From Rhodospirillaceae bacterium (GTDB lineage: Bacteria > Pseudomonadota > Alphaproteobacteria > Azospirillales > Azospirillaceae), in contig JAJUIU010000028.1 in the NCBI GenBank assembly GCA_029267445.1, positions 1 to 43,112 of the forward strand: DNA of 43,112 nt, read 5' to 3'. Shown here in pieces: positions 8,576 to 25,955 of the stretch. Below the pieces are notes generated by a model. That model had not been told where the DNA came from and ran no database searches. It worked only from the letters and a program-made list of their open reading frames with translations. The stretch's first letter is position 1. Every line of letters starts with the position of its first letter. Position numbers and translations under genes: made by a program.

Positions 8576-8649
8576 CGGTCCGGCGGGCAGGCCGGACCGC
8601 GAAGCCCGGCGCCACGGGGGCACGGCCGCGCGCGGGGCCTCCCCGCGCG
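8576..8649 (-). promoter_or_regulatory. Two strong hairpins in the sucCD 5' leader
   Basis: Within the 5' leader expected for sucCD there are two perfect 9-bp stems: 8576-8584 with 8591-8599 (6-nt loop) and 8629-8637 with 8641-8649 (3-nt loop, almost all G/C). The second would be at the extreme 5' end of a transcript started from the promoter at 8655-8682. They may protect the mRNA end or regulate it; no known riboswitch consensus was recognised. Confidence 0.4.
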
Positions 8650-8654
8650 GCGGC

Positions 8655-8682
8655 ACTTTAGCACCGGACGATTACGGATCAA
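8655..8682 (-). promoter_or_regulatory. Sigma-70 promoter of sucCD
   Basis: Minus-strand TTGATC (8677-8682) and TAAAGT (8655-8660) are separated by 16 bp, close to the housekeeping consensus, predicting a start near 8648 and a leader of about 110 nt before sucC. Confidence 0.5.
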
Positions 8683-8774
8683 CCGCGGAAAGGCGACGCC
8701 CCGCCGCAGGGCAGCATGGCCCGGCGCGCAACCCGACCGGATGGGGTAACCGCTTGATCGCGCGCCATGAAAAA

Positions 8775-8799
8775 GGGGGCTCCGCCGCGCGGAGCCCCC
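8775..8799 (-). terminator. Intrinsic terminator after the DUF1838 gene
   Basis: Perfect 10-bp G/C-rich stem (8775-8784 with 8790-8799), 5-nt loop, followed on the minus strand by five T residues (8774-8770). It lies 31 bp beyond the stop of the gene at 8830. Confidence 0.88.
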
Positions 8800-8829
8800 C
8801 TTCGGCGAAGTCGCGGTGGCCGCTCCCGC

Positions 8830-9741
8830 TCACTCCTTCTTCGGCGCGGGTTCCCGCTTGATGCCGGCGCGCTGGTCCATGACCTTCTCGTAGTAGGTCC
8901 AGGACGTCTCGTTCGGGCGCGGGTCGTTGGCCGGCGGCGGGCTGTCGTACTCCGGATAGTTCTTCCGGATCTCGTCCTTCAGCACGGCCGGCAGATCGTC
9001 GAAGCTGGCGACGCGCAGGCCCACGGCGTTGAAGTAGAGGGCGCCGTCCCTGGTGCCCATGTTCATCCAGGGCAGCCAGGGCGCCACGCGGGCCCAGGAC
9101 ACGGCCGCCGACGGCGCCCAGTCCTTGGAGGCGTCCAGCAGGTCGTCCGTCTGGGCGAAGAAGTTGAACAGCTCCACCGCTTGGTAGTTCGGGATGTCCT
9201 TCTGGTAGCTATCGGCCAGCGGGTTCGGGTACCAGAGCGGCACCTCGATCGCCATCTTCATCACCGGTCCCATGACCTTGCCGGGGAACCGGTACTCCCC
9301 GCCGCCGCGGGCCGACATGGCCATGAAGTTGTTCACCGGATCGTTGGCCACGTGCAGCACCTCCACCGTCTCGTTGGTGAAGGGGTTGGTCCAGTTGCGC
9401 AGCACCTCGCCGGTCTTCGGATCGAGGTAGAGCATGATCTCGCGGCTGACGAGGCGCGCACCCGGCCCGCGCTTCTCATCCACCATGGAATGGCAGGCGC
9501 GGACGTTCATTCCCACCACGCGGAACAGCAGCCGGTCGCGCTCCACGTTCGGCAGGCGGGAATAGGCGTTGCCCTCCCAGAAATAGAAGCCGGGCTTGCC
9601 GTCCTCGGTCGAGCACTGGATCTTGCGCATCGCCTTGAAGGCGTCCTCCGGCTTGGAGAGATCCAGCTTCTGGGCGCTGGCCGCCCCCGCCGTGAGGAGC
9701 AGCGCCAAGGCCGCCCCGATCGCACCCTTCATCCCACGCAC
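8830..9741 (-). CDS. Exported DUF1838 family protein
   Basis: 303 residues with a Sec signal peptide (about 1-23, ending ASAQKL). The mature protein matches DUF1838: DAFKAMRKIQCSTEDGKPGFYFWEGNAYSR is the type of opening, followed by RLLFRVVGMNVRACH, SREIMLYLDPKTGEVLRNW, a central MAMSARGGGEYRFPG, and SWARVAPWLPWMNMG near the end. The function of this family is not known to me; the many Trp/Tyr/Asn positions suggest binding of an organic ligand. A GTG start at 9741 is chosen because GGGAGG sits 6 bp upstream; the in-frame ATG at 9732 would be 15 bp away. It is a single-gene unit on the minus strand upstream of sucCD, with its own terminator. Confidence 0.82.
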   Translation of the reverse strand: MRGMKGAIGAALALLLTAGAASAQKLDLSKPEDAFKAMRKIQCSTEDGKPGFYFWEGNAYSRLPNVERDRLLFRVVGMNVRACHSMVDEKRGPGARLVSREIMLYLDPKTGEVLRNWTNPFTNETVEVLHVANDPVNNFMAMSARGGGEYRFPGKVMGPVMKMAIEVPLWYPNPLADSYQKDIPNYQAVELFNFFAQTDDLLDASKDWAPSAAVSWARVAPWLPWMNMGTRDGALYFNAVGLRVASFDDLPAVLKDEIRKNYPEYDSPPPANDPRPNETSWTYYEKVMDQRAGIKREPAPKKE

Positions 9742-19984: not shown

Positions 19985-21280
19985 ATGCACACTAGCAAGC
20001 GATCGATCATCCATGCGGTCCGGTCCGGCGCGGTGATGTCCGCCCTCGCCGGCCTCGCCCTCGCGGGCCTGCCGGACAGCGCCGCCGCCAAGGAGGCCAA
20101 GTTCGAGAAGGTGCCGATGACGACCGAAGGGTCGGCCGGCCCGACCCCCTGGGAACGCTACAAGGGCTGGAACAAGGCCACCTGGGACACCTACAACTCC
20201 CTGACCGAGCGCAAGCGCACCCCGCCGCCTCCCGGCGAGGGGCAGGTCAGGAAGATCGCCACGCCGATCGAGGGCAACGCCGAGAACGGCAAGAAGCTGG
20301 CCTTCGACCGCTCGCGCGGGGGTGGGTGCCTCGCCTGCCACGTGATGGGTCCGGAGACGGCCGAGCTGCCCGGCAACGTGGGCGTCGACCTGTCGGAGGT
20401 CGGGGCCGCCGGGCACGACGACACCTACCTGTTCAACTACATCTGGGACCCGCGCGCCTACAATCCGGAGAGCGTGATGCCGCCCTGGGGCGCGCATGGC
20501 TTCTACACGGAGGAGGAGGTGCGCGACATGGTCGCGTTCCTGAAGACGCTGAAGACCCCAGCCGTGTTCAAGAACGCCCTGGACGATCCGGAGAAGCGCC
20601 CGATCCCGGTGGAGGACCGCGACTGGCAGGACCCGTTCGTGAACCCTGCGGCCGAGGCGTTCGACACTGGCAAGGACGTGTTCGCCAAGGCGGGTGCGAA
20701 CGGGAAGTCCTGCGCCAGCTGCCATGAGGACGCCAACGCCCTCAAGGGCTGGGCGGTGGGCATGCCGAAGTGGCACGCGGGCATGAAGAAGGTGATCGGC
20801 ATCGAGGAGTTCGTGGCCCGCCACGCCAAGGCGACCATGGACACCGACATGCTGATGCAGAGTGCCGACAACATCACCCTGTCGGTCTATCTGCGGTCGC
20901 TGTCCAACGGCATGCCGATCAAGGTCGACACCGAGAGCAAGCAGGCCAAGGCGATCATGAAGGAGGCGGAGACGCTGATGACCACCAAGGTGGGCCAGCT
21001 GAACTTCGCCTGCGTGGACTGCCACAGCCCCGAGAAGGGTGCCCTGAAGTGGATCAGGGGCCAGTATCTGGGCGAGAGCGCCGGCCAGATCCCGCACTTC
21101 CCCGTCTGGCGCACGAGCCGCAACGAGACCTGGGACATCCGCAAGCGCCTGCAATGGTGCAACGTCCAGGTCCGGGCCAACGAACTGCCGCCCGACGCGC
21201 CGGAGTACGGCGTCCTGGAGTACTATCTGACGGCCCAGAGCAACGGGATGGAGATGGAGTCGCCGGGCATCCGCCATTGA
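19985..21280 (+). CDS. soxXA: Fused SoxX-SoxA cytochrome c, triheme
   Basis: 431 residues with an N-terminal Sec signal (about 1-35, ending DSAAAKEA). Residues 95-195 are a SoxX domain: heme c motif CLACH (115-119) and a distal Met165 in SVMPPWG. Residues 220-431 are SoxA: heme motifs CASCH (243-247) and CVDCH (343-347) and the catalytic cysteine WCNVQVRA (Cys392), the cysteine-persulfide heme ligand. SoxXA couples thiosulfate oxidatively to the SoxY cysteine. In the classical organisms SoxX and SoxA are separate subunits from adjacent genes; here one polypeptide carries both, in gene order X then A. Ribosome site GGGAAGG lies about 5-11 bp before the ATG. First gene of the sox operon. Confidence 0.93.
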   Translation: MHTSKRSIIHAVRSGAVMSALAGLALAGLPDSAAAKEAKFEKVPMTTEGSAGPTPWERYKGWNKATWDTYNSLTERKRTPPPPGEGQVRKIATPIEGNAENGKKLAFDRSRGGGCLACHVMGPETAELPGNVGVDLSEVGAAGHDDTYLFNYIWDPRAYNPESVMPPWGAHGFYTEEEVRDMVAFLKTLKTPAVFKNALDDPEKRPIPVEDRDWQDPFVNPAAEAFDTGKDVFAKAGANGKSCASCHEDANALKGWAVGMPKWHAGMKKVIGIEEFVARHAKATMDTDMLMQSADNITLSVYLRSLSNGMPIKVDTESKQAKAIMKEAETLMTTKVGQLNFACVDCHSPEKGALKWIRGQYLGESAGQIPHFPVWRTSRNETWDIRKRLQWCNVQVRANELPPDAPEYGVLEYYLTAQSNGMEMESPGIRH

Positions 21281-21338: not shown

Positions 21339-21821
21339 ATGACGACCAACCTTCATCTCGACCGCCGGGTGGCGCGGCGGACCGTCCTGCGCGGGGCCGC
21401 GACGGCCGCGGCGGCGGCCGGCACCGTCGGCCTGTTCGGCGCCTCGGCCTTCGCCACGCCGGAGAAGGCGAACGAAATGATGACCAAGCTCCTGGGCGGG
21501 AAGACGGCCAAGGAGGGCAGGGTCACCCTGACCATGCCGCAGATCGCCGAGAACGGGAACACGGTGCCGCTGACGGTGTCCGTGGACAGCCCGATGACCG
21601 ACAAGGACTACGTGAAGGCCGTCCACATCCTGGCCGACGGCAACCCGGAGCCGGCGGTGGCCAGCTTCGGCTTCACCCCGGCCAGCGGCAAGGCCGAGGT
21701 GTCCACCCGCATGCGCATGGCCAAGACCCAGAACATCCTGGCCGTTGCCGAGATGAGCGACGGGTCCGCCTGGATGACCAAGACCGAGGTCAAGGTCACC
21801 ATCGGCGGCTGCGGCGGCTGA
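21339..21821 (+). CDS. soxY: Thiosulfate-oxidation carrier protein SoxY
   Basis: 160 residues. A twin-arginine signal (RRTVLRG from residue 13, Ala-rich core, cleavage near ASAFATPE) exports it, probably folded and together with SoxZ. The mature part is the SoxY immunoglobulin-like domain; it ends GGCGG, whose Cys158 carries the sulfur intermediates through the Sox cycle. AGGAGAG sits just upstream of the ATG. It lies 58 bp after soxXA and 22 bp before soxZ. Confidence 0.97.
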   Translation: MTTNLHLDRRVARRTVLRGAATAAAAAGTVGLFGASAFATPEKANEMMTKLLGGKTAKEGRVTLTMPQIAENGNTVPLTVSVDSPMTDKDYVKAVHILADGNPEPAVASFGFTPASGKAEVSTRMRMAKTQNILAVAEMSDGSAWMTKTEVKVTIGGCGG

Positions 21822-21843: not shown

Positions 21844-22164
21844 ATGTCGAAGGCACGTATCCGCCTGCCCTCCACCGCGAAGAAGGGCGAGGTCATCGAG
21901 ATCAAGAGTCTGGTCAACCACGCGATGGAGTCCGGCCAGCGCAAGGATTCGGCGGGCAATCCGATCCCGCGCAAGATCATCAACAAGATGACCTGCAGCT
22001 TCAACGGGAAGGAGGTCATGAACGCGACCCTCCACCCCGGCATCTCCGCCAATCCCTACATCTCCTTCTTCGTGAAGGTGGAGGAGAGCGGCACGTTCGA
22101 GTTCGCCTGGACCGAGGATGACGGCAACGTCATCAAGGAAACGGCGCAGATCACGGTCGGCTGA
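21844..22164 (+). CDS. soxZ: Thiosulfate-oxidation carrier partner SoxZ
   Basis: 106 residues, normal size. No signal peptide; it leaves the cell as a complex with Tat-exported SoxY. Family segments visible are MSKARIRLPSTAKKGEVIEI, IPRKIINKMTC and LHPGISANPYISFFVKVEESG. It has one non-terminal Cys and forms the SoxYZ heterodimer. A strong ribosome site (AAGGAGG) precedes it. Confidence 0.97.
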   Translation: MSKARIRLPSTAKKGEVIEIKSLVNHAMESGQRKDSAGNPIPRKIINKMTCSFNGKEVMNATLHPGISANPYISFFVKVEESGTFEFAWTEDDGNVIKETAQITVG

Positions 22165-22303: not shown

Positions 22304-23992
22304 ATGAACAGGCGCGATTTCCTGCAGGTGGCCGCGGCCGCCGCCACGGTGCTGGGCGTCGGCCCCGGCGGTCTCGCCCGCGCGGCGACGGCCCAGGGGA
22401 TTTCACAGGGCGACCTGCTGCGGTTCCCGGCGAAGGGCAACGTCACGCTGCTGCATGTGACGGACATCCACGGCCAGCTCCGCCCCGTCCATTTCCGCGA
22501 ACCGTCGATCAATCTGGGCGTGGGGGAGGCGGCGGGCCTGCCACCCCACATCACCGGCAAGGACTTCCTGAAGGCCTTCGACATCAAGGCCGGGAGCCCC
22601 GAGGCCTTCGCCCTGACGATGGAGGATTACGTAGCCCTGGCCCGCCAGTACGGCCGCGTCGGCGGGCTGGACCGGCTGGCCACCCTGGTGAAGGCCATCC
22701 GGGCGGAGCGCGGAGACAAGGTGCTGCTGCTGGACGGCGGCGACAGCCTGCAGGGAAGCTGGGGTGCGCTGCAGACCAAGGGCGGCGACATGGCCCGGGC
22801 GCTGAAGGCGCTGGGGGTGGAGGGCAGCACCGGCCACTGGGAGTTCACCTACGGCAAGGACCGCGTGCCCGGCCTGATCGAGGAGCTGGGCTGCCCGTTC
22901 CTCGCCTGCAACGTGAAGGACACGGAGTGGGAGGAGAACGTCTTCGACGGCACCCACATGTACGAGCGCGGCGGCGTGAAGATCGCCGTGGTCGGACAGG
23001 CCTTCCCCTACACCCCTGTGGCCAATCCGCGCTGGCTGATGCCCAACTGGTCCTTCGGCATCCGCGAGGAGACGATCCGCGAGCAGGTGGAGGCGGCCCG
23101 CGCCGCCGGCGCCCAGCTCGTCGTGCTGCTGTCCCACAACGGCTTCGACGTGGATCGCAAGGTGGCCAGCCGGGTCGAGGGCATCGACGTCATCCTGACC
23201 GGGCACACCCATGACGCGCTGCCGGTGGCGGTGCAGGTCGGCAGGACCCTGCTGATCGCCTCGGGCAGCCACGGCAAGTTCCTGTCCCGCCTGGACCTGG
23301 ACGTGCGCGACGGGCAGGTGAAGGATTTCAGCTACCGCATCATCCCGGTCTTCGCCGACGCCATCGCCCCCGATCCGGAGATGGCGAAGCTGGTGGAGGA
23401 TCTGCGCGCCCCCTACGCGGCGGAATACGCCAAGGTGGTGGGGGAGACGGACGGGCTGCTGTTCCGCCGGGGCAACTTCAACGGCACCTGGGACGACCTG
23501 ATCTGCGAGGCGCTGCTGGCCGAGCGGGACGCGGAGATCGCCCTGTCGCCGGGGTTCCGCTGGGGCACCACCCTGCTGCCCGGCGAGAAGATCACCATGG
23601 AGGATGTCTGGAACCAGACCGCCATCACCTACCCGGCGGCATACCGGATGGAGATGAGCGGCCAGATGCTGAAGGACATCCTGGAGGACGTGGCCGACAA
23701 CCTGTTCAACCCCGACCCCTACTACCAGCAGGGCGGGGACATGGTACGCGTCGGGGGCATGGGCTACACGATCGACATCGCCAAGCCCATCGGCAGCCGC
23801 ATCGGCGGCATGACCCATCTGAAAAGCGGCAAGCCCATCGACCCGGCGCGGAACTACGTCGTCACCGGCTGGGCCAGCGTGAACGAGGCGACGTCCGGAC
23901 CGCCGATCTGGGACATCGTGTCCGCCCATATCGGCAAGCGGAAGGTCGTCACCGTGAAGGACAACCAGTCGGTCCGGATCGTCGGCGCCTGA
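22304..23992 (+). CDS. soxB: Thiosulfohydrolase SoxB
   Basis: 562-residue dimanganese hydrolase that releases sulfate from the SoxY-bound thiosulfonate. A Tat signal peptide (MNRRDFLQVA, cleavage near ARAATAQG) exports it to the periplasm. Metallophosphatase-type metal-site segments are HVTDIHGQL (Asp54, His56), DGGDSLQGS (Asp144), GHWEFTYG (177-184), LSHNGFD (His278) and GHTHD (300-304); the C-terminal 5'-nucleotidase-like domain continues to the end. The ribosome site is poor; a six-codon open frame at 22287-22307 overlaps the soxB ATG as ATGA, so re-initiation after it is conceivable. The upstream 139-bp gap has two hairpins. Confidence 0.97.
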   Translation: MNRRDFLQVAAAAATVLGVGPGGLARAATAQGISQGDLLRFPAKGNVTLLHVTDIHGQLRPVHFREPSINLGVGEAAGLPPHITGKDFLKAFDIKAGSPEAFALTMEDYVALARQYGRVGGLDRLATLVKAIRAERGDKVLLLDGGDSLQGSWGALQTKGGDMARALKALGVEGSTGHWEFTYGKDRVPGLIEELGCPFLACNVKDTEWEENVFDGTHMYERGGVKIAVVGQAFPYTPVANPRWLMPNWSFGIREETIREQVEAARAAGAQLVVLLSHNGFDVDRKVASRVEGIDVILTGHTHDALPVAVQVGRTLLIASGSHGKFLSRLDLDVRDGQVKDFSYRIIPVFADAIAPDPEMAKLVEDLRAPYAAEYAKVVGETDGLLFRRGNFNGTWDDLICEALLAERDAEIALSPGFRWGTTLLPGEKITMEDVWNQTAITYPAAYRMEMSGQMLKDILEDVADNLFNPDPYYQQGGDMVRVGGMGYTIDIAKPIGSRIGGMTHLKSGKPIDPARNYVVTGWASVNEATSGPPIWDIVSAHIGKRKVVTVKDNQSVRIVGA

Positions 23993-24043: not shown

Positions 24044-25327
24044 ATGAACGGGGAGAAGACAACGGGCGGGCTCGGACGGCGGCGCTTCCTGACCGGAAGC
24101 GCCAAGCTGGCCGCAACGGGCCTGCTGGCGGGCGGAGCGGTCACCGCGAGCGGTATCGTGCGGGCCGAGGGCATCCCGAAGGAGCTGCCGGACCATTCCC
24201 GCTACCTGGGGCCCGGCGTGACGGACGAGCCTTACGGCGTGCCGTCCCAGTACGAGGCGCACGTCATCCGCCGCAATGTGGAATGGCTGACCGCCTCGGC
24301 CGAGAGCAGCGTGAACTTCACGCCGCTGCAGGACCTGCACGGCATCATCACGCCCAACGGCGTCTTCTTCGAACGGCACCATTCGGGCCGCGCCGACATC
24401 GACCCGAAGACGCACCGGCTGGTCATCCACGGCCTGGTCGACCGCGAGGTCAGTTTCACCATGGAGGACCTGCTGCGCTTCCGCCCGGTGGACCGCATCT
24501 TCTTCACCGAATGCGCGGCCAATGGCGGCATGGAATGGCGCGGCGCCCAGCTTAACGGCGTGCAGTTCACGCGCGGCATGCTGGGCTGCGCCCAGTGGAC
24601 CGGCATCCCGCTGAAGACCCTGTTCGACCATGTCGGGCTGAAGCCGAAGGCGAAGTGGCTGCTGGCCGAAGGCGGCGACGCCTCCGCGCTCACGCGCTCC
24701 ATCCCTATGGAGAAGGCGCTGGACGACTGCATGGTCGCCTTCGCCCAGAACGGGGAGATGCTGCGGCCGGGCCAGGGCTATCCGATCCGGCTGGTGGTGC
24801 CGGGCTGGGAAGGCAACATGTGGGTGAAGTGGCTGCGCCGGCTCGAGGTCGGGGACCAGCCTTGGTACACCCGCTGGGAGACCAGCAAGTACACCGACCT
24901 GATGCCCAGCGGGAAGGCCTACAAGTTCACCTGGGTGCAGGAGGCCAACAGCGTCATCACCAGCCCCAGCCCGGAGAAGCCGCTGAACGGGGCCGGCCCC
25001 TACATCATCCGGGGCCTCGCCTGGTCGGGCCACGGCAAGGTCAAGCGGGTGGACGTCTCCACCGACGGGGGCAAGAACTGGGTCACGGCCCCGCTGGAGG
25101 AGCCGGTGATCAGCAAGGCGCTGGTGCGCTTCTACCTGCCCTGGCGCTGGGACGGGAAGTCGTCCGCCCTGCTGCAGAGCCGGGTGATCGACGAGACCGG
25201 CTATGTCCAGCCCACCATCGCGCAGCTGCGCGAGGCGCGGGGCGTGCACTCGATCTACCACAACAACTCGATCATGACGTGGCTGGTGAACCCGACGGGC
25301 GAGGTGGAAAATGTCCAGGTCGCTTAA
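24044..25327 (+). CDS. soxC: Sulfane dehydrogenase SoxC, molybdoprotein subunit
   Basis: 427 residues. It is the molybdenum subunit of Sox(CD)2, which oxidises the sulfane sulfur on SoxY and yields six electrons per thiosulfate. A Tat signal (GRRRFLTGSA, residues 11-20) exports it with cofactor inserted. The Mo-pterin domain contains the ligand Cys157 in RIFFTECAANGG; the C-terminal dimerisation domain has VSTDGGKNWV and FYLPWRWDG, as in sulfite oxidases. The presence of soxCD predicts complete oxidation of thiosulfate to sulfate without sulfur globules. The 3' end overlaps soxD by 17 bp. Confidence 0.96.
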   Translation: MNGEKTTGGLGRRRFLTGSAKLAATGLLAGGAVTASGIVRAEGIPKELPDHSRYLGPGVTDEPYGVPSQYEAHVIRRNVEWLTASAESSVNFTPLQDLHGIITPNGVFFERHHSGRADIDPKTHRLVIHGLVDREVSFTMEDLLRFRPVDRIFFTECAANGGMEWRGAQLNGVQFTRGMLGCAQWTGIPLKTLFDHVGLKPKAKWLLAEGGDASALTRSIPMEKALDDCMVAFAQNGEMLRPGQGYPIRLVVPGWEGNMWVKWLRRLEVGDQPWYTRWETSKYTDLMPSGKAYKFTWVQEANSVITSPSPEKPLNGAGPYIIRGLAWSGHGKVKRVDVSTDGGKNWVTAPLEEPVISKALVRFYLPWRWDGKSSALLQSRVIDETGYVQPTIAQLREARGVHSIYHNNSIMTWLVNPTGEVENVQVA

Positions 25328-25955
25328 GCTCCTCCCCCTCGCGCTTGCGGTCCTGGCCCTGCCGGCCCTGGCCGATCCCAACCTGCCGAAGAAGGGCGAG
25401 CTGGGCACCACCCTGAAACCGGAGGAGGTCGCCCGCTGGGACATCGACGTGCGCCCCGACGGCCAGGGCCTGCCGCCCGGCAAGGGGACCGCGCGGGAGG
25501 GCGAGCAGGTCTGGATGGAGCAGTGCGCCTCCTGCCACGGCGAGTTCGGCGAGGGCGTGGACCGCTGGCCGGTGTTGATGGGCGGCAAGGGCAGCCTCGC
25601 CACCGACGCGCCGGTGAAGACGCCCGGCAGCTACTGGCCCTACGCCAGCACGGTCTGGGACTACATCTACCGCGCCATGCCCTTCGGCAACGCGCAGTCG
25701 CTGACCCACGACCAGGTCTACGCCCTGACGGCGTACATACTGAACATGGACGACGTCATCCCGGCCGACTTCGTGCTGGACGCCAAGACGCTGCCCACCG
25801 TGAAGATGCCGAACGCCGACGGCTTCGTCGTCGATCCGCGCCCGGAGATGAAGGCGGCCGATCCCTGCATGAAGAACTGCAAGGCGGAGGTGACGATCAC
25901 CGGGCATGCGCGCAAGATCGGCGTGACGCCCGAGGAACAGGCCCCGATGCAGTGA
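25311..25955 (+). CDS. soxD: SoxD cytochrome c subunit of sulfane dehydrogenase, short monoheme form
   Basis: 214 residues with a signal peptide (1-21, ending PALADP). It has a single heme motif CASCH (72-76) with a probable Met123 ligand (RAMPFGNAQS), and a C-terminal pair CMKNC (Cys186, Cys190) that could form a disulfide. It passes electrons from SoxC to the respiratory chain. The well-studied Paracoccus SoxD is much longer and diheme; here only one heme-binding site exists, so this is a short variant. It starts within the end of soxC, with a GAGGTGG ribosome site in the soxC coding sequence, so the two are coupled. Confidence 0.92.
   Translation: MSRSLKLLPLALAVLALPALADPNLPKKGELGTTLKPEEVARWDIDVRPDGQGLPPGKGTAREGEQVWMEQCASCHGEFGEGVDRWPVLMGGKGSLATDAPVKTPGSYWPYASTVWDYIYRAMPFGNAQSLTHDQVYALTAYILNMDDVIPADFVLDAKTLPTVKMPNADGFVVDPRPEMKAADPCMKNCKAEVTITGHARKIGVTPEEQAPMQ

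Follow-up and report, generated by a model that had tools for sequence, protein, structure and literature searches.

A single-chain SoxX-SoxA cytochrome in Azospirillaceae belongs to a fused clade with histidine at the presumed heme-1 cysteine site

Introduction

A single open reading frame at the head of a sox gene cluster in a contig of Rhodospirillaceae bacterium (JAJUIU010000028.1; 43,112 nucleotides, hereafter the window) appears to carry both SoxX and SoxA, which raises the question of whether one polypeptide provides the whole SoxXA cytochrome and, if so, how it compares with the SoxXA proteins already described. An earlier note on this DNA had read the gene as a fusion with three heme motifs and knew of no well-described example. 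In this study, we follow up that reading with curated family models, genomic context, the distribution of fused chains and SoxA phylogeny.

Results

Domain architecture of the fused chain

Both domains pass their curated NCBIfam cut-offs on one frame, as the earlier note had supposed: the SoxX model matches residues 112-189 with 72.3 bits against a cut-off of 61, and the SoxA model matches residues 221-430 with 162.3 bits against a cut-off of 110. The CXXCH motifs at residues 115, 243 and 343, Met165 and Cys392 all lie where they had been placed (Table 1). The solved SoxA chains 2c1d_A, 1h31_A, 3oa8_A and 3ocd_A match the C-terminal part of the chain, while the solved SoxX chains 1h31_B and 3oa8_B match its N-terminal part. 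Arg376, Arg388 and Cys392 align with Arg206, Arg218 and Cys222 of 1h31_A, and the presence of CLACH together with Met165 is consistent with a SoxX heme whose presumed distal ligand is methionine. An AlphaFold2 model, built from an alignment of only the window, L093 and L094 proteins, reached a mean pLDDT of 40.2 and a pTM of 0.34.

Table 1. Features of the fused gene and of the genes downstream of it in the window
Feature	Position	Strand	Basis or remark
Fused soxXA gene	19985..21280	+	One ATG-initiated frame, 431 aa plus stop
Probable Sec signal peptide, residues 1-35	19985..20089	+	Sequence features only (positively charged N-terminus, a hydrophobic stretch and small residues); cleavage site assumed
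Conserved N-terminal segment, residues 44-73	20114..20203	+	Carries W-x-R-Y-K-G-W; no family match
SoxX domain, residues 112-189	20318..20551	+	TIGR04485
SoxX heme motif CLACH 115-119	20327-20341	+	Sequence motif
Met165, presumed SoxX heme ligand	20477-20479	+	Sequence position
Interdomain linker, residues 193-220	20561..20644	+	Between SoxX and SoxA model matches
SoxA domain, residues 221-430	20645..21274	+	TIGR04484
SoxA heme motif CASCH 243-247 (heme 1)	20711-20725	+	Sequence motif
His280, column of presumed heme-1 distal Cys in other SoxA	20822..20824	+	Alignment
SoxA heme motif CVDCH 343-347 (heme 2)	21011-21025	+	Sequence motif
Active-site region	21110..21160	+	Arg376 21110-21112, Arg388 21146-21148, Cys392 21158-21160 (catalytic heme ligand)
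soxY	21339..21821	+	TIGR04488 above cut-off
soxZ	21844..22164	+	TIGR04490 above cut-off
soxB	22304..23992	+	TIGR04486 above cut-off
soxC	24044..25327	+	TIGR04555 above cut-off
Cytochrome c at soxD position	25311..25955	+	214 aa, one CXXCH; no SoxD model match

The segment ahead of the SoxX domain gave zero matches to the family models searched; its W-x-R-Y-K-G-W stretch occurs in the window protein and its close kin, and W-x-R-Y in 22 of 27 further fused rows.

It could be argued that cleavage after export separates SoxX from SoxA and that the enzyme works as the usual heterodimer. A linker of about 28 residues does lie outside both family models, and the sequence data are compatible with processing; against this, the linker is conserved, with Pro206, Pro208, Glu210 and Arg212 invariant across seven core rows of the alignment, and inspection of residues 193-220 revealed no second signal peptide. 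We consider such cleavage very unlikely.

Operon and genome context

From the fused gene onward the order is soxXA-Y-Z-B-C followed by a soxD-like gene, and the location of soxY, soxZ and soxB directly downstream is the context expected for a Sox-pathway gene. Classical SoxD is a diheme protein longer than the 214-residue cytochrome found at the soxD position, homologues of which also follow soxC in L093 and L095. The window genome (4.23 Mb, rated 100% complete) contains a single SoxA match, the fused chain, and four SoxX matches, of which only the fused chain exceeds the cut-off and three weaker ones fall below it; the absence of a separate soxX or soxA, noted earlier for the window, is thereby extended to the whole genome for soxA and, above the cut-off, for soxX.

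Neighbourhoods searched with the window's Sox proteins preserve the order XA-Y-Z-B-C-D in L093 and L095, place the fused gene between Y-Z and B in L094, and show Y, Z and a broken B behind soxXA in L133. In this second soxXA-Y-Z-B copy of Indioceanicola profundi (G054:C1:903463-905141; L133:4461-6145) soxB is split into two frames, and the copy therefore looks damaged or misread. No other sox genes were found adjoining the fused gene in L126-L130 (about 17 kb each) and L131 (4 kb). Among ten tested genomes with fused chains, SoxZ is above its cut-off in all ten and SoxB in nine, the fragmented genome G1122 yielding partial SoxB matches only. The fused query has one match each in G1089 and G947, among the matches listed, and more than one SoxA-like match in G836, G1145, G935 and G1122, so that in these four genomes the fused chain need not be the sole SoxXA.

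Alternatively, the chain might be a TsdA-like thiosulfate dehydrogenase with an extra cytochrome domain, producing tetrathionate rather than serving SoxYZ. TsdA, according to a passage of PMC4423706, likewise joins in a single chain a catalytic domain whose heme is Cys-ligated and an electron-transfer domain with a His/Met heme; Pfam PF21342 spans both the SoxA and TsdA families, and the isolated position of the fused gene in L126-L131 would suit an enzyme acting outside the Sox system. On the other hand, the SoxA equivalog model is above its cut-off, the NCBIfam matches of the window protein include no TsdA-named family, the gene stands in an operon with soxYZBC, and SoxZ accompanies every fused chain among the genomes tested. 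Furthermore, the serine that PMC4423706 describes as invariant in TsdA, four residues past the catalytic cysteine, is Val396 in the window protein. A TsdA-like enzyme is thus highly improbable, and the chain is better read as a SoxXA.

Distribution of fused chains

Within the window's family, 21 of 82 genomes gave matches at E<=1e-3 and 61 gave none. Both domains are covered in two, the window genome and that of Indioceanicola profundi (G054, Azospirillaceae), which has two fused copies with 75 and 72% identity to the window protein; in 18 others the SoxA matches, at 23-32% identity, leave SoxX uncovered, and G057 has a weak N-terminal match only. Wider samples gave matches in 62 of 385 genomes of the class (E<=1e-15), spanning both domains in the window genome and G207, and in 43 of 398 genomes of the phylum (E<=1e-20), the window's own being the sole spanning one. 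Scanning contigs with patterns from the N-terminal segment named two loci, L093 from an alphaproteobacterial MAG and L094 from a Rhodocyclaceae MAG (54%). In viral contigs two stretches matched a pattern, neither of which encoded a relative.

In the class of G589, matches were obtained in 156 of 369 genomes (E<=1e-6) and spanning ones in at least six (G1089, G947, G836, G1145, G935 and G1122), a lower bound since same-frame SoxX was examined in 30 loci. L094 comes from G1170, whose family gave matches in 7 of 346 genomes (E<=1e-30), five of them fused. The fusion is most uniform in the order of G1089, where 22 of 42 genomes have matches and all 22 loci are fused; the sampled genomes of this order form one family with 25 genera, and 25 is also the number of GTDB genera given for Beggiatoaceae in PMC11172852.

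Photoactive yellow protein, used across ten genomes with fused chains as a marker for Halorhodospira, is above its cut-off only in Indioceanicola (G054), and none of the gammaproteobacterial-class genomes among them has one above cut-off; the order of G836 is represented by one genome. A photoactive-yellow-protein-like frame of 134 aa also occurs at G000:C59:22282-22647, with 78.1 bits under a cut-off of 143.

The joining of two genes by an assembly or sequencing error, for which one might cite the draft state of the assembly (174 contigs) and loci elsewhere in which a single stop is all that parts soxX from soxA within a frame, is so improbable that it can be set aside, since the same fused architecture recurs in other genomes (twice in Indioceanicola, and within the clade described below in a total of 32 further loci). 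The gene itself contains zero N and zero internal stops, and its third-position GC is 0.91-0.96 across five segments including the linker; the earlier note had named such an error as one threat to its reading.

Histidine at the heme-1 site

A cysteine about 35 residues after the heme-1 motif (residue 114 of 1h31_A) is presumably the distal ligand of SoxA heme 1. In this column 1h31_A and 2c1d_A have Cys and the window protein has His280, so that it falls outside the classical diheme SoxA as defined by Cys at the presumed heme-1 distal site. Counting loci, with references, fragments and repeats left out, the column is His in all 33 loci of the clade to which the window protein belongs and Cys in all three fused chains outside it; among 71 unfused loci bearing heme 1 it is Cys in 64, Ser in 3, Glu in 2, Met in 1 and His in 1. 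The first alignment, of 118 rows including three PDB references and three overlapping fragments (L033-L035), had given His in 8/8 clade rows and Cys in 3/3 fused rows outside the clade; its 76 unfused rows with heme 1 divided into 69 Cys, 3 Ser, 2 Glu, 1 Met and 1 His. Loci added later served as a test of the histidine, which was present in 27 of 27 fused rows, 25 of them new because L136 and L143 repeat earlier loci; the 22 loci of the Beggiatoaceae group (L143-L164) have it without exception. Arg376, Arg388 and Cys392 are likewise conserved in 33/33 clade loci. As the 33 loci form one branch, the histidine probably reflects one ancestral change rather than 33.

The cysteine is retained in all 32 unfused loci that have no heme-1 motif, in keeping with a position adjacent to that heme. 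A non-Cys residue (Met, Glu, Ser or His) occurs in seven unfused heme-1-bearing SoxA (L030, L052, L063, L038, L039, L076 and L079), so the site varies outside the fused clade too. The loss of an arginine close to the C-terminus, an idea based on SoxA numbering, was rejected, its column not being among those conserved in at least 75% of unfused SoxA.

Phylogeny and origin of the fusion

The careful SoxA tree comprised 91 rows, of which 36 were fused; three PDB references were among the unfused remainder. The window protein groups with 32 further fused loci in one clade with 100/100 support that is present in 100% of 200 bootstrap trees, and three fused chains, L099, L100 and L101, fall outside it; the spread of the fusion, proposed earlier as a check, comprises a clade of 33 loci plus fused chains elsewhere in the SoxA tree. 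L100 and L101 group with unfused SoxA, with support, in a 64-row tree. A single group of all fused chains found no support: it appears in 0% of the 200 bootstrap trees, the 64-row tree agrees, and the SoxA trees need three changes, of which the starred branches force at least two. Such a group is likewise unsupported in a quick SoxA tree of 117 rows, and the SoxX tree, with 108 rows and few columns, forces at least two changes.

The simplest reading of these trees is that SoxX and SoxA were fused at least twice separately. One old fusion with later splits may serve as an alternative, the change counts being blind to gain and loss, and L099, on a long and weakly placed branch, may represent a third place of fusion. 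In a lineage other than the window's, L132 (G938, 8640-9219) and L109 (G1032) have soxX and soxA in one frame, separated by one stop and a few codons, a layout that could give rise to a fusion.

A tree of 33 fused chains, for which we picked the outgroup, brings the four alphaproteobacterial rows together (100/100) and likewise the 22 Beggiatoaceae rows. The window and Indioceanicola proteins are nearer to those of Beggiatoaceae and Rhodocyclaceae than to the SoxA of their own family, which we read as horizontal transfer; a fused gene common to Azospirillaceae, Rhodocyclaceae and Beggiatoaceae would be explained most simply in this way.

Discussion

Judged by its sequence, the chain joins a SoxX domain to a diheme SoxA domain within one frame, keeps the catalytic residues, and heads a soxY/Z/B/C operon in a genome with no separate soxA. 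It is therefore very probable that the whole SoxXA of the Sox pathway is encoded by this gene as a single periplasmic polypeptide that carries three c-type hemes and follows ordinary chemistry, with heme 1 predicted to be bis-histidine ligated. The chain would be exported and its three hemes attached; thiosulfate would be oxidatively conjugated to Cys392, a ligand of heme 2 (His347/Cys392), with the aid of Arg376 and Arg388; the two electrons would move to that molecule's own SoxX heme (His119/Met165) and then to a soluble acceptor, and the sulfur group would be passed to the cysteine of SoxY. Arg388 precedes Cys392 by four residues, as Arg119 does in TsdA, and Arg376 would be the SoxA-invariant arginine mentioned in PMC4423706 if precursor numbering is chain numbering plus 26, an offset that we infer. 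A heme edge distance of 10.7 A is given for SoxAX in the same source.

Throughout the clade, heme 1 (His247) would have His280 rather than cysteine as its second ligand. A Cys-to-His change made to the active-site heme of TsdA raised the potential by 80 mV and inactivated the enzyme, as reported in a passage of PMC9562282; since the change here affects heme 1 and leaves the active heme as it is, the protein would be expected to stay active. We are moderately inclined to regard the window clade as a SoxXA class of its own, a triheme protein in one chain in which heme 1 has switched from His/Cys to bis-His ligation, the catalytic thiolate is the sole Cys ligand, and heme 1 possibly works in electron transfer.

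The observation of a fusion is real and well supported, and the architecture itself is already known. Fused SoxXA is in print for Halorhodospira (PMC8877833) and Beggiatoaceae (PMC11172852), whereas the earlier note knew of no well-described example; of the earlier interpretation the fusion with three heme motifs stands, and the predicted change of heme-1 ligand had been overlooked. Although the fusion is thus on record, our literature search, with most subscription papers outside its coverage and hence weak as evidence of absence, turned up neither a structure nor spectroscopic data for any fused SoxXA. It found no report of a heme-1 histidine either, which with the same coverage is equally weak evidence. 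The new points are modest, namely the lineage of the host, the finding of fused chains in separate SoxA lineages, and the histidine at heme 1. They extend the fusion to Azospirillaceae, where it is the window genome's only SoxA, and show fused chains at two or more places in the SoxA tree, while the clade-wide Cys-to-His replacement offers a natural variant for probing the role of heme 1. SoxAX has been called highly recalcitrant to mechanistic analysis (in a passage of PMC4423706), and a single chain, its domains held at 1:1 and just one of its hemes thiolate-ligated, could be simpler to produce and to study by spectroscopy.

Among known systems, the SoxXA of Halorhodospira is described in an excerpt of PMC8877833 as fused, a single triheme protein, and by that description resembles the window protein in having SoxX N-terminal to diheme SoxA. 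In Beggiatoaceae, passages of PMC11172852 state that a separate soxX was not found and that SoxAX is fused as in other members of the family, and one soxAX accession per strain is listed for Beggiatoa leptomitoformis in PMC7356093. Both soxAX primers for B. leptomitoformis given in PMC11507549 match L153 without a mismatch, in facing orientation (in L161 the forward primer has an exact match and the reverse primer none within three mismatches), and L153 and the window protein fall in the same 33-row clade (100/100). As excerpted, PMC11507549 also reports that SoxAXYZ proteins were detected in a Beggiatoa relative without significant change in level, and that soxAX and soxB transcripts were on average about 15-fold higher on endogenous sulfur alone than with sulfide; a relative of the window protein is thus a known, expressed gene.

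The window protein shares with Beggiatoaceae SoxAX, as described in parts of PMC7356093, PMC11507549 and PMC11172852, the domain order, the SoxA clade and the heme-1 histidine, and has 49% identity to L126 (= L096), the sole Beggiatoaceae locus compared; unlike the branched Beggiatoaceae system, which by a passage of PMC11172852 has no SoxCD, it heads a soxYZBC(D) cluster. Like TsdA as outlined in PMC4423706, it unites in one chain an electron-transfer domain and a catalytic domain with a Cys-ligated heme. TsdA differs in having its catalytic domain first, two hemes, and thiosulfate rather than SoxYZ as second substrate. With the SoxAX of Rhodovulum sulfidophilum and Paracoccus (1h31, 2c1d) both of its domains are homologous and the catalytic Arg and Cys align, but theirs are separate chains with Cys at the position of His280.
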